Source: Collinsella provencensis (GTDB lineage: Bacteria; Actinomycetota; Coriobacteriia; Coriobacteriales; Coriobacteriaceae). From it: a DNA stretch of 64,000 nt. Position numbers and translations under genes: made by a program. This document shows positions 15,768 through 41,098 of the stretch, in pieces. The stretch is from the NCBI RefSeq assembly GCF_900199705.1, contig NZ_LT904908.1:984530-1048529 (forward strand), given 5' to 3'. The notes under the pieces were generated by a model. That model was not told the origin of the DNA and did not search any database. It saw only the letters and a list, made by a program, of their open reading frames with translations. Position 1 is the stretch's first letter; every line of letters starts with the position of its first letter.

Positions 15768-17297
15768 ATGGGCGAATCCCCCACCATGGCAACCAACGAT
15801 CTCACTACACGTTTCCGCGAGCTTGAGCACAAGCTCTGGACGCGCGAGTACCTCATGAAAATCACGAGCTTTGACGGCGCCACCGTGGCACCCGAGAACA
15901 GCGCTGCCTCCCGTGGCGAGGCGCTCGGCACGCTTTCAGGCGAGCACCACGAGCTGCTTACGGGCACCGAGGCTCAGGAACTCCTCGGCGAGCTAACGGC
16001 CGCGGTCAAGGCTGGAGATATATCCGATCCGCAGCTCCTTGCCGAAATCCGCACGCTCGCGCGCGACCAGCGCGAGGCCTGCGTCATCCCCACGGAGGAA
16101 GCCGAAGAGTGGACGCGCCTCACCTGCGAGTCGCAGGCCGTGTGGCACAAAGCGAAGACAACGAACGACTGGGTGAGCTTCGAGCCCTACATCGACCGCC
16201 TTGTCGAGACGCTCAAGCGCCATGCAAGCTACATCGATTCCACGCGTGACCCCTACGACGTGTGGCTCGACCAGTACGAGCGTGGCATGAACGCCGCGGC
16301 GTACGATCGCTTCTTTGACCAGGTACGCGAGACCGTTGTCCCACTCGTCCACGCCATCAGCGAGCGCGGAGAGCAACCCGATGCGCCGTGGCTTACCGCC
16401 CACGTATCCGACGCCGTTCAGCGCGAGCTTTCGTACGATCTCATGAAGCTCATGGGGCTCGCCCCCGCCGATACCACGCTCGCCTTTACCGAGCATCCCT
16501 TCTCCGAGGGTTTCTCCGTGGGCGATGCGCGCGTTGCCACGCATATCTACGAGGACAACGTGCTCTCCAACGTGTACTCCATCATCCACGAGTCGGGTCA
16601 CGCGTCCTATGAGCTGGGCGTCAACCCTGCATACGCGCGCACGTGCCTGGAGGGCGGCACCTCGATGGGCATCCACGAGAGCCAGAGCCGCTTCTTTGAG
16701 AACACCGTCGGACGCAGCCGCGCCTTTATGGGGCCGCTGCTCGGCGTGCTGCGCGCGCACGCGCCCGAGGTGTACGGCGACGTGACCGAGGACGAGCTGT
16801 ACCGCGCAGCCAACATCGCCACACCATCGCTTATCCGCACCGAAGCCGACGAGCTCACGTACCCGCTGCACATCATGCTACGCTATGACATCGAGCGCAT
16901 GCTGTTCTCGGGCGAGGCGACCGCCAAGGACGTCCCAGCGCTCTGGAACAAGCTGGTCAAGCAGTATCTGGGTCTCGACGTGCCCAACGACGCGCAGGGC
17001 TGCCTGCAGGATATCCACTGGAGCGAGAGCTTTGGTTACTTCCCCACCTACGCGCTGGGCAGCGCCTACGACGCGCAGTACGTACCCGCCATGCAACGTG
17101 ACGGCGTGAATCTAGACGATGTGTGCGCCTCGGGCGACCTCACGCGCGCACTCGAATGGCTGCGCACCAACATCTGGCAATGGGGCCGCGGCAAGGATGC
17201 CGCGGAACTCGTCGAGGGCGCCTGCGGCGCGCCGTTCGACGCCACGTTCTACTGCGATTACCTGGCAAGGAAGTTCAGCGAACTGTACAAGCTGTAG
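15768..17297 (+). CDS. M32-family metallocarboxypeptidase
   Basis: 509-residue Taq-type carboxypeptidase that trims C-terminal residues from peptides in the cytosol. The zinc motif HExxH is visible in SIIHESGHASYELG, followed by GTSMGIHESQSRFFEN, where the third ligand Glu is expected. Length matches the family (~500). The start is supported by AAGGAGG. No signal peptide. Single gene followed by a strong terminator. Confidence 0.95.
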   Translation: MGESPTMATNDLTTRFRELEHKLWTREYLMKITSFDGATVAPENSAASRGEALGTLSGEHHELLTGTEAQELLGELTAAVKAGDISDPQLLAEIRTLARDQREACVIPTEEAEEWTRLTCESQAVWHKAKTTNDWVSFEPYIDRLVETLKRHASYIDSTRDPYDVWLDQYERGMNAAAYDRFFDQVRETVVPLVHAISERGEQPDAPWLTAHVSDAVQRELSYDLMKLMGLAPADTTLAFTEHPFSEGFSVGDARVATHIYEDNVLSNVYSIIHESGHASYELGVNPAYARTCLEGGTSMGIHESQSRFFENTVGRSRAFMGPLLGVLRAHAPEVYGDVTEDELYRAANIATPSLIRTEADELTYPLHIMLRYDIERMLFSGEATAKDVPALWNKLVKQYLGLDVPNDAQGCLQDIHWSESFGYFPTYALGSAYDAQYVPAMQRDGVNLDDVCASGDLTRALEWLRTNIWQWGRGKDAAELVEGACGAPFDATFYCDYLARKFSELYKL

Positions 17298-17325
17298 TTT
17301 TCTGGCAGTGCGAACGATTCAAAAA

Positions 17326-17355
17326 GAGGGTGAGCATATGCTCGCCCTCTTTTTT
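17326..17355 (+). terminator. Rho-independent terminator after the M32 gene
   Basis: Perfect 12-bp stem GAGGGTGAGCAT/ATGCTCGCCCTC followed by six T. Confidence 0.93.
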
Positions 17356-17374: not shown

Positions 17375-17568
17375 TGGCAACTTTTGCCAGATTGTAAGGT
17401 TCTCTCGACCGCGTGAACGCGGAAAACAAGGCGCGCGTGAATCCCAGCGAGGCATCAAATCACCGCGACCTGCGGTTTTGCTAAATCAGTATCAGGCAAA
17501 TGACGCAGCGCTTCCCAAAAAATCCCTCGAAGCAAGTGCCAGACCTTATAATCTGGCAAAAGTTGCCA
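17375..17568. repeat. MITE-like element, copy A (194 bp)
   Basis: Non-coding element bounded by ~26-bp terminal inverted repeats. The left end begins TGGCAACTTTTGCCAGATTG and the right end is its complement with one mismatch. The outer 15 bases of each end are themselves palindromic (TGGCAA-CTT-TTGCCA). Internal sequence and length match copy B at 37800, for example CGACCTGC followed by GGTTTTG/AGTTTCG and CAGACCTTATAATCTG. Similarity extends ~25 bp left into the preceding terminator. No ORF inside. Confidence 0.85.
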
Positions 17569-17649
17569 CAAAAACGCAATCGTGAAGAAAAACTGAGTGC
17601 CCCCGGGCGGATGGCATGCCAAATACGCGCAGCAATGAACCTGCGAGAC

Positions 17650-18786
17650 CTACACCGTCAGGAACACCATCGCGATGATGCAGGCAAAACCGATAAGATC
17701 CGTGGGAGCGAACACCGTCCCCAGCACCAGTGCGCTGGTCACGGTTGCAGACACCGGCTCGACGGTGCCGATCAGGCTCGCGCGCACGCTGCCGATTTCC
17801 TTGACGCCCTGCATATAGAGGTTGTAGGCCAAGAACGACCCCACCACGATGAGAATCGCAAGCGCAATCCAACCGCCTGCGTCAAACGCCGGAACGGCAT
17901 TCCAGGGCCGCACAAAGCACGAGAGCACCACGCCCGAGGTGAACATTGCCGAGCCCGTGACAATCGACGACCCATAAATGGGCAAGATTTTCGTAGGGAC
18001 AATTGTGATGCAAGCGGCGCCTACCGCGGAAAGCAGCCCCACTACCAGGCCCTCGGGAGGAATAACCAGCGACGTGGGGTCACCGCCCGTGGCAATAAGG
18101 AACGCACCGATAAGCGCCAACGCCAAACCCGCAAGCTCGCGGCGACGCGGAGCGCGATGCGCACGCAGGCAGGTGTACCCCATGATGAGTATCAACTGCA
18201 GGCATTGCATAACAGTTGCCGTACCGGCATTGGTGTAACGTACCGCCAGCATGTAGAACAGAGAGTTCGCAAACACGCCTGCAAAAGTGAAGAACAGCAT
18301 GAGACCAAGATGCTTTGGCGTGTGCAGTAGCTTCGCGAAGCGTTTGCGGTCAGTCAGAAGAATAACTGCCATAAACAGCGCACCGGCACACAGCTGACGC
18401 ACCGACAGAAGCCAAATCGTATCGACTTGGAAATGCTCAAACAGGTAGCTTGCAGACGTTCCCGAAAAGCCCCAAAACGTTCCGCCGGTAAGCGTGACGA
18501 GCGCACCTCGTGCAAAACGACGCGTTGATTCGTCGTTGTGGCGCTTGCGATTCGAGCGACGGGCGGCACGCGCTTCGGCGCTTGCATCGGAACCCGGACG
18601 AATAGACGACGCAAGTCCAACAGCACCGCGAGGTGCCCCACCTTGCTGGCGCTCGGCCGTCTTGGCAGCAGCACCACTTGGTTCACCCTGTTCGAAGGTA
18701 CGATTATCCGCCGGAATATCATCCCGCTCTTGCTCTGTTAGCTCGTCAGATGCTTCCAACTCACTCGCCACTTCTATCCTTTCCAT
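17650..18786 (-). CDS. EamA-family (DMT) transporter with charged N-terminal extension
   Basis: 378-residue inner-membrane permease with two EamA repeats, about ten helices (FWGFSGTSASYLFEHF, LFFTFAGVFANSLFYMLAVRYTNAGTA, and the second repeat ending PTDLIGFACIIAMVFLTV). Substrate unknown. Residues 1-90 are hydrophilic, rich in Glu/Arg and low complexity, which is uncommon in this family and probably cytoplasmic. The start at 18786 (MERIEV) is preceded by AGGG; an upstream GTG at 18807 is possible. Divergent from the M16 peptidase. Confidence 0.88.
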   Translation of the reverse strand: MERIEVASELEASDELTEQERDDIPADNRTFEQGEPSGAAAKTAERQQGGAPRGAVGLASSIRPGSDASAEARAARRSNRKRHNDESTRRFARGALVTLTGGTFWGFSGTSASYLFEHFQVDTIWLLSVRQLCAGALFMAVILLTDRKRFAKLLHTPKHLGLMLFFTFAGVFANSLFYMLAVRYTNAGTATVMQCLQLILIMGYTCLRAHRAPRRRELAGLALALIGAFLIATGGDPTSLVIPPEGLVVGLLSAVGAACITIVPTKILPIYGSSIVTGSAMFTSGVVLSCFVRPWNAVPAFDAGGWIALAILIVVGSFLAYNLYMQGVKEIGSVRASLIGTVEPVSATVTSALVLGTVFAPTDLIGFACIIAMVFLTV

Positions 18787-19024
18787 TTCAACAAGCCCTA
18801 CAACCATAGCGCATGAGGTTGAGCGGGTATACTGGGCAACAGCGGAAACCCCGAGTTCCCCAACACTGCCTACGCTGGCGCAACGAAATCGTCCGTTCGC
18901 ACGAGCCCGATGCTACAAACCGCCTGTATGCGGGCGGTGTGCAGTTCGCGCAAAACCAACCGACTCGCGCGTCAGAAACAGGGCAAAACAAAACCAACTT
19001 CAGCCCCACAAAGGAGCCGTATCC
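18787..19024. promoter_or_regulatory. Divergent promoter region, EamA gene / M16 gene
   Basis: TATACT at about 18828 is a -10-like hexamer for the plus-strand peptidase gene. AAAGGAG lies eight bases before its ATG. No dyad stands out. Confidence 0.4.
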
Positions 19025-29888: not shown

Positions 29889-31817
29889 TTAGAACGTTCC
29901 GCCGCCGCCTCCGCCAACGCCGCCGCCTCCGCCGCCGGAGAAGCCGCCGCCAAAACCGCCGCCCGAGCTATCGGAGCTCAGCATAAGCGAGCGCATGGAC
30001 GTGCTATAGGAATCGGACAGCTTATTCATGGGCGAATGCAGGTCGCCATAGGAGTAGTACCAGTAATAGCTGGGGTAATAGTACCTACCGTCGTCATCGA
30101 TGCACGCCTCCCTAGGCACCGCGTCGGCAAGCTCGCGCACCACGTCCTCACTCACGCCAAACGCCACGGCCATCACGAGCAGCTTGTTCCACAGGATCAA
30201 GTCGCCTGGAACCGCCTCATTCAAGCGTGTGAAATCCTCGAGCCAGCGTTTGAGGGCGACGCAGCGATTGCGCAGCTCGACGGCCTCCTGCGTGTACTTC
30301 TTCGCCGTAAACGCCAAGGGAATCGCAGCGAGCGCGAGCAGGATGCTCGCCAGGATAAGCGGGAGATTCATGCCGTCGGTCGCGATGAGGAAGAACACGC
30401 CCGCGATGAATATGATCGCCGATGCGAAGGTCGTCGCCACCGGCAACGCCGCGGGAATCTGGTTGGTCAAGTTGCGCGCTTCAAGCCGGGCTTTGACCTC
30501 CTCTTTGAACGATCCGACCGAGCTGTCGTCTTCTGGATCGGCGTCCTCGAACGTGTCATCGAAGCAAACCAGGTCGCCATCCTGCATATTCTTTCCAAAG
30601 TACAGCTCAAGCGCGATTCGGTCGATGCGACTGTGCACGCCCGCCTTGTTGAGCAAACGCAGTGCATAATCCGTGACCTCGCGCTCACCGCGCAGGAACT
30701 TCTTCTCCTTGCGCGTGGTCCGCACGAGCTCGACCACATGGTCGTCCGTGAGCTTCATGAGCGTTGCCACGAACGCGCAATCCTGTACCTCACCTCCGTT
30801 TATGAGCGCGGAGAGAACGGCAGGATGATCTCTTGAGGGAAGGTCGCGGAAATAGGTTTCCTGAAACACCGGCTTGGGCTTCTTGTACTTGGTGAAGCGC
30901 AGGCCCGCGACCACCACGAACAGAATAGCTGATGCACCCACGAGCACCACAGTACCCACGGTGGCAAGTGTGCGCGCACGTTCGCGCCGCGCATTGGCCT
31001 CATCTGCCCAGACACGCTCTTCTGCAAGCACATCTTCGATGCGCGACGTGCCGGCAACTTCGAGCCCAGGAACCCAATCGGTTGGGAACAACGCGCGTAC
31101 CTCGGCAAACTGTCCGAAGGCAACCTTTGGCGCGGAAAGGACAACGGAGAGGTCGTCCGCGGTGGCGTTGACCTCCACCGTGCCGTCGAGCGGACCATGG
31201 CCCCACGCGCGCAGCGTGGCGTCATCTGTGCCGGTTATTGCCGGTGAACCTGAAGCCGCTCCGGAAAAGGTAACTTCAAGCTGCACATCGTGCGCAGACT
31301 CTTCCCACTCAGAGCCGATGAACTGCCAATACAACTCTGCAGTGTCCGACCAAGCCATCACGGCGCCGCGCAACGTGTAACTCAGCGTGACCGTAGCCGA
31401 GTCGTCTTCCTCCTGCGGCATGAACACCTTGAGCTCGAGACCTTCGCCGTTCTCGTCCACCGTGTAGACGCCCGTGTCACCGTTATACGCATCCCGCACC
31501 TGGTCAAATTCGAGCGTCTGGCTGTTGAGCCAGTATGCCGTTCCCTCAACCTGAACACTTTGGATGTCGATGGAGGACGAATTCCCTTGTTGATTGTCTG
31601 CAAAGGGGATGCTCCAGAACACACCGTTCACGTCTTCATCGAAGGAGAAGGTGCGCTTCTCGCTCACGATCAAGTCGCCATTGGGCTGGACATCGGCCGT
31701 TATGTGAACGCGCGGCAATTCGTAGGCCTGCGCTGGTGCTGACGAGAAAAGCAGCAGGAAAAGGGTGCAGGCAAAGGCAGCGAACAGACGCTTGAAATGA
31801 CGGTTTGCCATCCGCAT
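29889..31817 (-). CDS. DUF2207-family membrane protein with Gly-rich tail
   Basis: 642-residue exported membrane protein. A signal peptide (~1-32, LFLLLFSSAPAQAYELP) precedes an extracytoplasmic DUF2207 domain (VHITADVQPNGDLIVSEKRTF...). One membrane helix lies at ~290-312 (VGTVVLVGASAILFVVVAGL) and a helix pair at ~470-515. Cytoplasmic stretches follow YFRDLPSRDHPAVLSALINGGEV. It ends in a glycine tail GFGGGFSGGGGGGVGGG, a hallmark of many DUF2207 proteins. Function unknown. The start at 31817 has AAGGAGT. Single gene next to the repeat hotspot. Confidence 0.9.
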   Translation of the reverse strand: MRMANRHFKRLFAAFACTLFLLLFSSAPAQAYELPRVHITADVQPNGDLIVSEKRTFSFDEDVNGVFWSIPFADNQQGNSSSIDIQSVQVEGTAYWLNSQTLEFDQVRDAYNGDTGVYTVDENGEGLELKVFMPQEEDDSATVTLSYTLRGAVMAWSDTAELYWQFIGSEWEESAHDVQLEVTFSGAASGSPAITGTDDATLRAWGHGPLDGTVEVNATADDLSVVLSAPKVAFGQFAEVRALFPTDWVPGLEVAGTSRIEDVLAEERVWADEANARRERARTLATVGTVVLVGASAILFVVVAGLRFTKYKKPKPVFQETYFRDLPSRDHPAVLSALINGGEVQDCAFVATLMKLTDDHVVELVRTTRKEKKFLRGEREVTDYALRLLNKAGVHSRIDRIALELYFGKNMQDGDLVCFDDTFEDADPEDDSSVGSFKEEVKARLEARNLTNQIPAALPVATTFASAIIFIAGVFFLIATDGMNLPLILASILLALAAIPLAFTAKKYTQEAVELRNRCVALKRWLEDFTRLNEAVPGDLILWNKLLVMAVAFGVSEDVVRELADAVPREACIDDDGRYYYPSYYWYYSYGDLHSPMNKLSDSYSTSMRSLMLSSDSSGGGFGGGFSGGGGGGVGGGGGGTF

Positions 31818-32212: not shown

Positions 32213-32382
32213 AAACGCGATTCCGAGAATCCGTGCGTCGCCCATGGCGCGCCCCCGTCGGCGAGGGTGCCCGTCGACTGGTCGGAAGGGCGACTTGCGA
32301 GGTCGGGAGCGCCGGCGCGGGGCCCTCCGGATGGCCCGGGGACGCACGCGCGGCTGGTTTTTCTTTCAAATGGGCCCTAAAT

Positions 32383-32577
32383 TGGCAAAAAATGCCAGAT
32401 TATGACATCCGAGGCTTCCCATGGAGGGGCCGGATGCCCCTCAACTCACACTCCCATGTTTCCATGGTTGGAAAACGCGCAGGTCAGGAGGGTGCTCCAT
32501 TTTCCCCAACTCGACGGGCGCTCGCCCGTTCCCCTCCGGCCGCCCCTCGGGACCGCACAATCTGGCATTTTTTGCCA
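32383..32577. repeat. MITE-like element, copy C (195 bp, diverged)
   Basis: Ends TGGCAAAAAATGCCAGATTA and its complement (AATCTGGCATTTTTTGCCA). Same length and end architecture as copies A and B, with an altered palindromic core (AAAAAA instead of AACTTT) and the same left flank pattern GGGCCCTAAAT. The internal sequence is largely different. Confidence 0.75.
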
Positions 32578-32689
32578 TTTTCTGGACGGAGGCAGAAAAA
32601 CCGTCGGGAACACCCGCGAGCCGCCAGGCCCGGAAGGCGGGGCCGCACCCGTTTACGACATCCGGGACAGAAGCGGGGGCATGGGCAGA

Positions 32690-34828: not shown

Positions 34829-37402
34829 TTACACGATGCGGAACGAACCCTCGGTGTCCACATCGAGCATAACCGTGTCGCCCTCGCGCACCGTGCCGTC
34901 GATGATGGCGCGCGCGATGACGTCAACCACCTCGCGCTGGACCAGGCGCTTGAGCGGACGCGCGCCGTACACCGGATCCAGGCCGCCCACGGCAAGCATC
35001 TGCTTCGCGGCGGGCGTGATCTCGAGCGTCATGCGCTCCTTGGCCAAACGCGCGCGAACGTCCTTCAGCTGGATGTCCACGATCTTCTCGATTTGCGCCA
35101 TGCCGAGCGGATGGAACACCACGATGTCGTCGATGCGGTTGAGGAACTCCGGGCGGAACGTGTGGCTCATCGCCTCGTCGACCTGACGGCGCATCTCCGC
35201 ATCGTCCTTGCCTGCGAGCTCGGCAATCGCGCTCGAACCCACGTTGCTCGTCATGATGACGATCGCATTCTTGAAGCTCACTTGGCGACCCTGACCGTCG
35301 GTCAGACGACCGTCGTCAAGCACTTGTAGCAGTACATTGAAGACGTCAGGATGTGCCTTTTCCATCTCGTCGAGCAAAATCACGCTGTACGGGCGACGAC
35401 GCACAGCCTCGGTGAGCTGGCCGCCCTCGTCATAGCCCACGTATCCCGGGGGCGCGCCGATGAGACGCTGGACGCTGAACTTCTCCATGTACTCGGACAT
35501 ATCGATGCGCACGAGCGCGCGCTCGTCGTCAAACAGGCACTCGGCAAGTGCCTTGGCGAGCTCGGTCTTGCCCACGCCGGTGGGTCCGAGGAAGAAGAAA
35601 CTACCGATAGGACGGTTGGGGTCGGCCAAGCCGGCACGCGAGCGACGCACTGCCGCCGCGACCGCGGATACCGCCTCGTCCTGGCCGATAACGCGCTTGT
35701 GCAGCTCATCCTCGAGACCCTTGAGCTTCTCGAGTTCGCCCTGCATCATCTTAGACACGGGCACGCCCGTCCACGCGCTCACAACCTCGGCGATCTCGTC
35801 GGACGTGACCTCCTCCTTGAGTGCGCCCTCGCCTTCCTTTTGCTCGGCGAGCTGGGCCTCGCCCTGGGCAACCTGCTGCTCAAGGCTCGGGATGGTCGCA
35901 AAGCGCAGCTCAGACGCACGGGCAAGATCGCCGTCGCGCGTAGCACGCTCCTCCTCACTGCGAGCCTCATCGAGCTGGGCCTTGAGCTCCTGCACGCGAT
36001 CGATGGCGTTCTTCTGGTTGAGCCAACCCGCCTTTGCCACGTTGAGGCGCTCCTGCACCTCGGCAATCTCCTGGCGCAGCGCCTCCAAGCGCTCGGCAGA
36101 CGCCTCGTCCGTCTCCTTCATGAGCGCCTGCTCCTCGATTTGCATCTGCGTGAGCTGACGCGTAATGGCGTCGATCTCAACCGGCATGGAATCGAGCTCC
36201 ATGCGCAGGCGGCTCGCAGCCTCATCGACCAGGTCGATGGCCTTATCGGGCAGGAAGCGGTCGGCGATGTAGCGATCGGACAGGTCGGCGGCGGCAACGA
36301 GCGCCGCGTCGGCGATGCGCACGCCGTGGAAGATCTCGTACTTCTCTTTGATACCGCGCAGGATGGAAATGGTGTCCTCCACGCTCGGCTCCCCCACCAG
36401 CACCTGCTGGAAACGACGGGCGAGCGCGGCGTCCTTCTCGATGTACTTACGGTACTCGTCAAGCGTGGTCGCACCGATGGCGTGCAGGTCACCGCGGGCG
36501 AGGGCGGGCTTCAAGATGTTGCCCGCGTCCATGGAGCCCTCGGTGGCACCGGCGCCCACGATGGTGTGCAGCTCGTCGATGAAGAGAATGACCTTGCCCT
36601 CGGCCTTTTCGACCTCTTTGAGCACCGCCTTGAGACGATCCTCGAACTCGCCGCGGTACTTGGCGCCCGCCACGAGCGCACTCATATCGAGCTCGATGAG
36701 ATCGCGGTCGCGCAGCGTGCTGGGCACGTCGCCGGCAACGATACGCTGGGCGATGCCTTCCACGATGGCGGTCTTGCCCACGCCCGGCTCACCGATGAGC
36801 ACGGGGTTGTTCTTGGTGCGGCGCGAGAGCACCTGAATGGTGCGGCGAATCTCGTCCGTGCGACCGATCACCGGATCGAGCTTGCCTGCACGGGCCAAGT
36901 CGCAAATGTTGCGCCCGTACTGCTCAAGTGCTTCGAACTCGGTTTTTGCATCCGCGCTGGTAACGCGGTCGTCGCCGCGCAACTCGGTATACACCGACTC
37001 GATGCGCTCACGCGTCACGCCCGCGTTTGCGAGGATAGTCCCCGCCTCTCCCTTGTCCTCGGCAAGAGCCATCAGCAGGTGCTCGGTGACCACGAAGTTG
37101 TCGTCCATCTTGGACGCCTTCTTCTCGGCACGCTCAAGCACGCGCGTCAGGTCGTTAGATAGCTGCTGCTGAGCGCCCTCGACCTTGGGAGCGCGCTCGA
37201 TAGCCTGCCTCGTTGCGGCCGTCAGCTGCTTGGGGTCGGCTCCGATGCGCTCGATGATCACGGAAATGTTACGCTCACCGCTGGTGAGCAGGGCGGCCAG
37301 CAGGTGGACGGGCTCCACCGCTGCGGCCTGGGCGTCAGACGCGATACCAATGGCGTTTTGCAGCGCCTCGCGTGACGTCATGGCCAGTTTGTCGATTCTC
37401 AT
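34829..37402 (-). CDS. clpB: ATP-dependent chaperone ClpB
   Basis: 857-residue hexameric disaggregase that works with DnaK. N-terminal repeat domain (~1-145), AAA1 with Walker [10 protein letters not shown] and Walker [10 protein letters not shown], the coiled-coil middle domain (~400-520, rich in Glu/Arg/Gln), AAA2 with [14 protein letters not shown] and [13 protein letters not shown], and the C-terminal small domain. The start at 37402 ([14 protein letters not shown]) follows AGAGGTGG. It shares a 36-bp upstream element with dnaK, so it is probably in the same heat-shock regulon. Confidence 0.97.
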
Positions 37403-37543
37403 AGGTGTTCCACCTCTCTCGTTTCGGATGCTCACTCGCAGGAACGCTCCCGCAAAACTGCGCGCTTACACCCGAGCGGCCACCCTACGGGGCGGCCGAC
37501 ATGGTTTACTCAAAAGGTATTGTTGCCGATAATCGACAGCTTT

Positions 37544-37579: not shown

Positions 37580-37799
37580 AGTAATCGGATTGAGGGACAA
37601 GAAGCTACCCACGAAGCGTACGCGCAAAGCGCGCAGCAGCAAGCACCAGAAGCGCAGCACTCGCGCCCAGGATCGGCTCACAAGACACAATGTGTATCCG
37701 TTGCTGGACGGCTAACATGCAAAATAACGACACGACGGTTCGAAACGGAAGCCGGAAATGAACTCGCCCCCTCATTTTTTCGCGGAATCGGGCCCAAAA

Positions 37800-37994
37800 T
37801 GGCAACTTTTGCCAGATTGTAGGGCCCCGACAACTGGACAAGGGCGAAAAGCGGAACACACGCGAATCCAGACAATGCATCGAATCGCGGCGACCTGCAG
37901 TTTCGCCGAATCGAAATCGAGCGAAACGGCGCGAACGCGCACGGAGACATCCTCGGGATGAACGTCAGACCTTATAATCTGACAAAAGTTGCCA
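37800..37994. repeat. MITE-like element, copy B (195 bp)
   Basis: Left end TGGCAACTTTTGCCAGATTG; right end is its near-complement ending AAAAGTTGCCA. Same length, end structure and internal blocks as copy A at 17375, with the same left flank (TTTTTTCGC, then GGGCCC). No ORF inside. Confidence 0.85.
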
Positions 37995-38136
37995 GAAAAC
38001 CTGGTTCATGGGTAAAATACGCGCCCGGACAACGCGGGCCGGCGTTAACACGTCCGTTTGCAGATACAGAGTTGAATCGGACACGCATTCTGTCCAACAA
38101 GCCCCAGAATCACGCAAGCCCTTTGTCCAACGACAA

Positions 38137-38180: not shown

Positions 38181-41098
<2,918 letters not shown>

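Follow-up and report, generated by a model that had tools for sequence, protein, structure and literature searches.

Copies A, B and C, three inverted-repeat elements in a 64,000-nucleotide stretch of the Collinsella provencensis genome (hereafter the window), probably belong to a dispersed, REPIN-like family that is partnered by a gene for a DUF559/Vsr-type nuclease-like protein. At the level of the genus, we lean towards a system in which several Vsr/DUF559-type nuclease paralogues per genome each recognise and propagate their own phased, two-ended elements, with ends and protein co-evolving. Together, the observations point to an undescribed gene-plus-repeat system, similar to REPIN/RAYT but built on a different enzyme. 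A search of the open-licence literature returned no report that ties Collinsella or DUF559 proteins to such repeats, and an earlier description elsewhere is possible.

The preliminary description had listed three copies of 194–195 bp with terminal inverted repeats (TIRs) of about 26 bp, a small palindrome in each terminal repeat, similar left flanks, internal blocks common to A and B, and no encoded protein. All of these features are borne out. The copies are 194, 195 and 195 bp long, with TIRs of 25–26 bp that show 88–96% complementarity, and the terminal palindrome reads TGGCA-N5-TGCCA. The flanking similarity is a T-run at −24 to −21, mirrored on the right side too, and the common internal block surrounds a core that copy C carries in reverse orientation (Table 1). 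The copies form a non-coding, dispersed inverted-repeat family. Allowing at most 2 mismatches, TGGCAAAANTTGCCA has 9 matches in the window versus 0.41 expected, and all nine belong to the six ends of A, B and C. Besides these copies, a single inverted repeat in the window passes the same detector, at the score threshold. The M32 gene has a strong intrinsic terminator at 17321–17354; the T-run of this hairpin and the outer T-run on the left of copy A coincide.

Table 1 Copies A, B and C with their parts and neighbouring genes, in window coordinates
Feature	Position	Strand	Description
Copy A	17375–17568	+	194 bp, intergenic; left TIR 17375–17400, right TIR 17543–17568
Copy A, core	17468–17479	+	ACCTGCGGTTTT; starts 93 bp from left end
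Copy A, left outer T-run	17350–17355		From end alignment
Copy A, right outer A-run	17588–17592		Mirror of T-run; from end alignment
Copy A, neighbour	15768–17297	+	M32 carboxypeptidase
Copy A, neighbour	17650–18807	−	EamA transporter
Copy C	32383–32577	−	195 bp
Copy C, core	32479–32484		Reversed: GCAGGT
Copy C, outer T-run	32358–32362		Mirrored A-run 32596–32600
Copy C, neighbour	29889–31817	−	DUF2207 gene
Copy C, neighbour	32877	+	ORF of unknown function
Copy B	37800–37994	+	195 bp
Copy B, core	37893–37903		ACCTGCAGTTT
Copy B, outer T-run	37775–37780		Mirrored A-run 38014–38017
Copy B, neighbour	34829–37435	−	clpB; copy B lies upstream
Copy B, neighbour	38181–39635	−	GH1 glucosidase gene; copy B lies downstream

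A genome search for the terminal sequence, suggested in the preliminary description, returns 13 paired copies with 26 ends in the 1.74-Mb genome (3 contigs), on which a pattern search and a 53-position end profile agree; neither finds a solo end in the genome. The situation raised in that description as speaking against its reading, no further copies and identical placement in all relatives, is not what is found. Nine copies measure 194–196 bp, three 205 bp and one 173 bp. All 13 are intergenic, about half of them between convergent housekeeping genes (purC/PALP, coaX/folP-folK and aconitase/DUF554 among these sites), with others upstream of clpB or htpG. Since every end is paired, with 158–190 bp between the palindromes, no larger autonomous element with these ends is found in the genome.

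Each of the 26 ends is organised, from the outside in, as a T-run, TGGCA, an A- or T-tract, TGCCA, GATT and a weaker RTRAGG. The outer T-run lies 21–24 bp beyond both ends (T in 25–26 of 26 ends at −23 to −21 and in 24 of 26 at −24), and AT-rich positions repeat about every 10 bp. The interior is strongly diverged, far more than the ends, yet the directional core ACCTGCGGTTTT keeps a fixed position, with its start 93 bp inside one end and about 102 bp inside the opposite one. The 205-bp copies have 10 bp extra; one of them has the insertion in one arm, the two others have it in the opposite arm. The palindrome spacings of 158, 179–181 and 190 bp are all near whole numbers of helical turns. The ~10-bp AT periodicity, the fixed core, the helical-turn spacings and the diverged interior favour a DNA–protein complex over an RNA. 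The two spacers of a copy do not agree significantly (p 0.11), and the concordance of positions 19–27 is modest (p 0.011). The element matches no family in Rfam; ranked by E-value, only sub-threshold matches to the neighbouring terminator appear.

The evidence points to a 356-aa gene at G000:C3:623534–624595 as the gene to which the 195-bp family belongs; one copy of the family lies about 240 bp past its 3′ end. Five further genes of the same family, at about 97, 1144, 1260, 1481 and 1595 kb of G000:C3 (L207, L205, L208, L204 and L206), each adjoin elements of 122–161 bp with their own ends. Genes of this family number 2–10 per genome in 45 of 45 genus genomes searched. An inverted-repeat element lies within 500 bp of 44 of the 50 fetched family genes, 21 being flanked on both sides, or of 31 of 37 when the 13 genes that are orthologues at one locus, and so not independent, are left out. 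Shuffled-DNA controls give 0, and random gene-sized positions in the window have a nearby inverted repeat in 6.5% of cases, copies A–C included. For six of the 50 genes the detector finds no element; one of the six is the gene at G000:C3:623534–624595, whose element falls below threshold. Most of the examined family genes have one or two elements of about 120–220 bp beside them, and end sequence varies by paralogue, each gene having its own. The homologue of the 356-aa gene in G195 sits between two 125–126-bp elements. G190 has a class I element (classes are defined below) downstream of purC, and this dispersed copy and the gene-side element of that genome have identical ends. The pairing of genes with elements is shown, by their adjacency and by the ends common to gene-side and dispersed copies.

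Several observations bear on where the partner family occurs. It was not found in viral contigs and phages. In a plasmid collection, the only records matching family proteins come from Collinsella aerofaciens, where the proteins are annotated ‘hypothetical protein’, and two of these plasmid-record genes have an inverted-repeat element just 3′. One record labelled a plasmid, NZ_OY725722.1, is circular, 1,785 bp long and carries a family gene; its reading as an excised circle was rejected because the gene is truncated, there is no inverted repeat, a transposase-like ORF adjoins it and the same assembly also gives the plasmid label to a sequence of 899 kb. Both this record and NZ_OY725717.1 (899 kb), likewise a circular ‘plasmid’ (L304 and L306), look like chromosomal assembly fragments. 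Separately, an inverted repeat of ~162–199 bp with ends GGGACAGGTTTATTTTGGCAGGTTTTATC lies about 1 kb past the class I gene at L176 (3521–3696), with equivalents in L178–L188.

A tree of 50 partner proteins has two clades, class I, which includes the 356-aa protein, and class II, and both end sequence and element length co-vary with the clade. Class I proteins go with elements of about 190–217 bp whose ends are mostly of the TGGACA..CAGAT kind, and class II proteins with elements mostly of 122–161 bp, inside which GAGTAGAC/GTCTACTC occupy mirrored positions, not beside the end palindrome. Nine residues (P207, E209, G223, G224, D260, E271, H277, D286 and R289 in the numbering of the 356-aa protein) are invariant or nearly so, and the putative active site formed by E209, D260, E271, H277, D286 and R289 is present in 49–50 of the 50 proteins. 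Among 32 members, nine match Pfam MTES_1575 (REase; best 1.1e-5) and six match DUF559 (best 3.6e-4), the single member with a listed score lying below the Pfam cut-off; taken by itself, the 356-aa protein matches no Pfam family. The sole PDB profile match is 3r3p, a mobile-intron protein, and is weak (E 0.91). From these weak-to-moderate profile scores and the conserved residues, the partner is likely to have a PD-(D/E)XK/Vsr-type (EDxHD) nuclease fold, preceded by about 190 aa of conserved N-terminal sequence. No match to a Y1 (HUH) transposase was found for the family. A transposase with matching ends, which the preliminary description had suggested looking for, was not found in the genome, and the gene that adjoins the elements is instead the DUF559/Vsr-type nuclease-like one.

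Both the gene locus and the element sites persist vertically, with gains and losses. In most of the class I species retrieved, the class I gene and its flanking elements occupy the same chromosomal place, between prs and pth; 11 close species are without a class I cassette there, and the class I gene of G000 is elsewhere in its genome. No base-precise empty site was found at prs–pth, where the cassette-free junction is replaced rather than clean, and no excision event of an element or cassette was found. Close species carry dispersed class I elements at the orthologous sites X, Y and Z; the interiors of these elements change fast and their ends are intact. All copies in G012 have TTTGTA ends; at these sites, ACGTA ends prevail among its neighbours. 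Intact class I elements are also kept in genomes without a listed close class I gene (L224–L273; for example, G014, G183 and G007).

Among the genomes searched, no convincing copies with these particular ends were found outside C. provencensis. The paired pattern is absent elsewhere in 397 genomes of the order, bar one chance-like match, and in GTDB r220 it occurs in no other species beyond two unrelated matches, a tandem repeat and a coding sequence. Against 66 other genomes of the family, the end profile gives nothing convincing and no copies with these ends; four weak partial matches in other genera (E 0.02–0.07) are taken as chance. The orthologous intergenic regions of sister species have analogous elements with different end sequences. 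At the M32/EamA site, where copy A lies, the elements of G195 and G199 measure 126 bp, their ends read CGCAAATG(C/T)G(C/G)GGATAA and their core is TACCTGCTG, and the same intergenic region of G005 is without an element. Copies of 125–127 bp number 17 in G195 and five in G199; their core lies at +58/59, and GAGTAGA/TCTACTC motifs occur in mirrored positions. Both ends carry the same variant in 16 of the 17 G195 copies (permutation p below 5e-5). In G195 (L153–L162) there are two end subtypes, GTGGGG and GCGCGG, the two ends of each copy being of one subtype, and only GTGGGG copies are found beside a partner gene; no partner gene was found adjoining the GCGCGG-type copies of G195 and G199. Concerted evolution at the M32/EamA site, at first favoured, is now less clear, because the element of C. 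provencensis and those of G195 and G199 belong to different classes; the element there may also have been replaced, or a favoured site may have received insertions more than once.

Under the reading we prefer, the partner protein would bind both palindromic ends of an element and bring them together, with helically phased arms on either side of the central core. Mobilisation by the nuclease is putative: we infer that its activity may copy or renew elements through a break and repair or strand transfer, leaving no target duplication, and that such copying would be rare enough for descent to be mostly vertical.

The main rival is a regulatory or chromosome-structuring role, in which the nuclease-fold protein would bind DNA as a regulator or serve as a nucleoid factor, paired operators would form loops and the gene-side copies would serve autoregulation. 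Helically phased arms and phased A-tracts would suit such sites, as would positions kept across species (at X, Y, Z, M32/EamA and the aconitase locus) and the element upstream of clpB. About half of the C. provencensis copies, however, sit where two genes converge and a promoter is not expected; the putative catalytic residues are invariant in the 50 proteins, and the gene cassette is polymorphic for presence or absence. We regard this role as unlikely, although it deserves to be taken seriously.

A homing-type gene drive, in which the nuclease cuts element-free alleles, repair copies in the gene with its flanking elements, and dispersed elements are by-products or protective sites, seems improbable to us. 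EDxHD/Vsr-type homing endonucleases do exist (PMC6083498), the mobile-intron protein 3r3p is the only structural profile match, and the element–gene–element cassette at prs–pth is present in some close species and missing from the same spot in others. In C. provencensis, nevertheless, there are 13 gene-less non-coding elements for a single cognate gene, and the cassette sits between genes, not within a conserved target site.

The preliminary description had favoured a non-autonomous, MITE-like mobile element or a processed RNA. Its dispersed inverted-repeat family stands, but a classical MITE, that is, a non-autonomous derivative of a cut-and-paste DDE transposon moved by a transposase with the same ends, is decidedly improbable: the ~26-bp TIRs, TG..CA termini and dispersed intergenic copies fit it, whereas the uniform pairing of ends at short range, the lack of a larger autonomous element in the genome and the diverged interior around a core of fixed position do not. 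Nor do target duplications support it, as none is seen at the element edge or the T-run edge of the 13 copies; neither edge is enriched, and the longest words common to the two flanks equal the permuted mean. That each copy yields a processed, structured RNA whose basal stem is made of the two ends is least probable of all and disfavoured: as RNA, the copies fold 6–7 sd better than shuffles and the ends of G195 copies agree in variant, but four consecutive A.A/T.T mismatches interrupt the outer stem in 4 of 13 copies, spacer concordance is not significant, no Rfam family matches, each end is itself palindromic and length changes track the DNA helical repeat.

The preferred reading, a REPIN-like family with a nuclease-like partner, invites comparison with several known systems. 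Correia elements and MITEs are short and intergenic, with TIRs of about 26 bp and a central conserved site, all of which applies to the Collinsella elements; the latter differ in having no target duplication, no transposase with matching ends, a dedicated partner gene and species-specific ends. The RIP and RIB elements of E. coli are BIMEs with an IHF site, in which two inverted palindromes surround a central site, often at convergent gene ends. The Collinsella elements share this layout and placement, but sequence and partner are unrelated and the elements adjoin genes of one family. The partner protein has weak profile similarity to EDxHD (Vsr-related) homing endonucleases such as I-Bth0305I (3r3p), to DUF559 and to MTES_1575, with the same conserved order of acidic, His and Arg residues; unlike those endonucleases, it is encoded by free-standing genes outside introns, flanked by inverted-repeat elements, and has the conserved ~190-aa N-terminal region.

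The closest likeness is to REPIN–RAYT systems, in which two inverted palindromic ends surround a less conserved middle, the elements are intergenic and the partner is a Y1 (HUH) transposase gene; several flavours coexist per genome, each lying beside its own single-copy gene, which is mostly inherited vertically (Bertels and Rainey 2011, PMC3116915). The Collinsella elements are likewise dispersed, intergenic pairs of inverted palindromic ends with a variable middle, each flavour adjoins its own partner gene (44 of 50 genes), gene-side and dispersed copies have the same ends, and the population signature is similar. As opposed to REPIN–RAYT, a DUF559/Vsr-type nuclease-like protein stands in place of the Y1 (HUH) transposase as partner, the ends of the C. 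provencensis family have no GTAG-type tetranucleotide with a short hairpin REP, the elements have a conserved directional core and phased arms, and the gene is flanked by entire elements. REPINs and RAYTs are the textbook case of short repeats that a single-copy, apparently domesticated mobile-element enzyme has kept over very long times. If our reading is true, several independent families per genome of abundant gut bacteria would provide a comparative test of why such repeats persist, DUF559-type proteins, which in Collinsella bear no annotation beyond ‘hypothetical protein’, would gain a candidate role, and a second system with the same population-genetic signature and an unrelated enzyme class would mean that the REPIN–RAYT lifestyle arose more than once.
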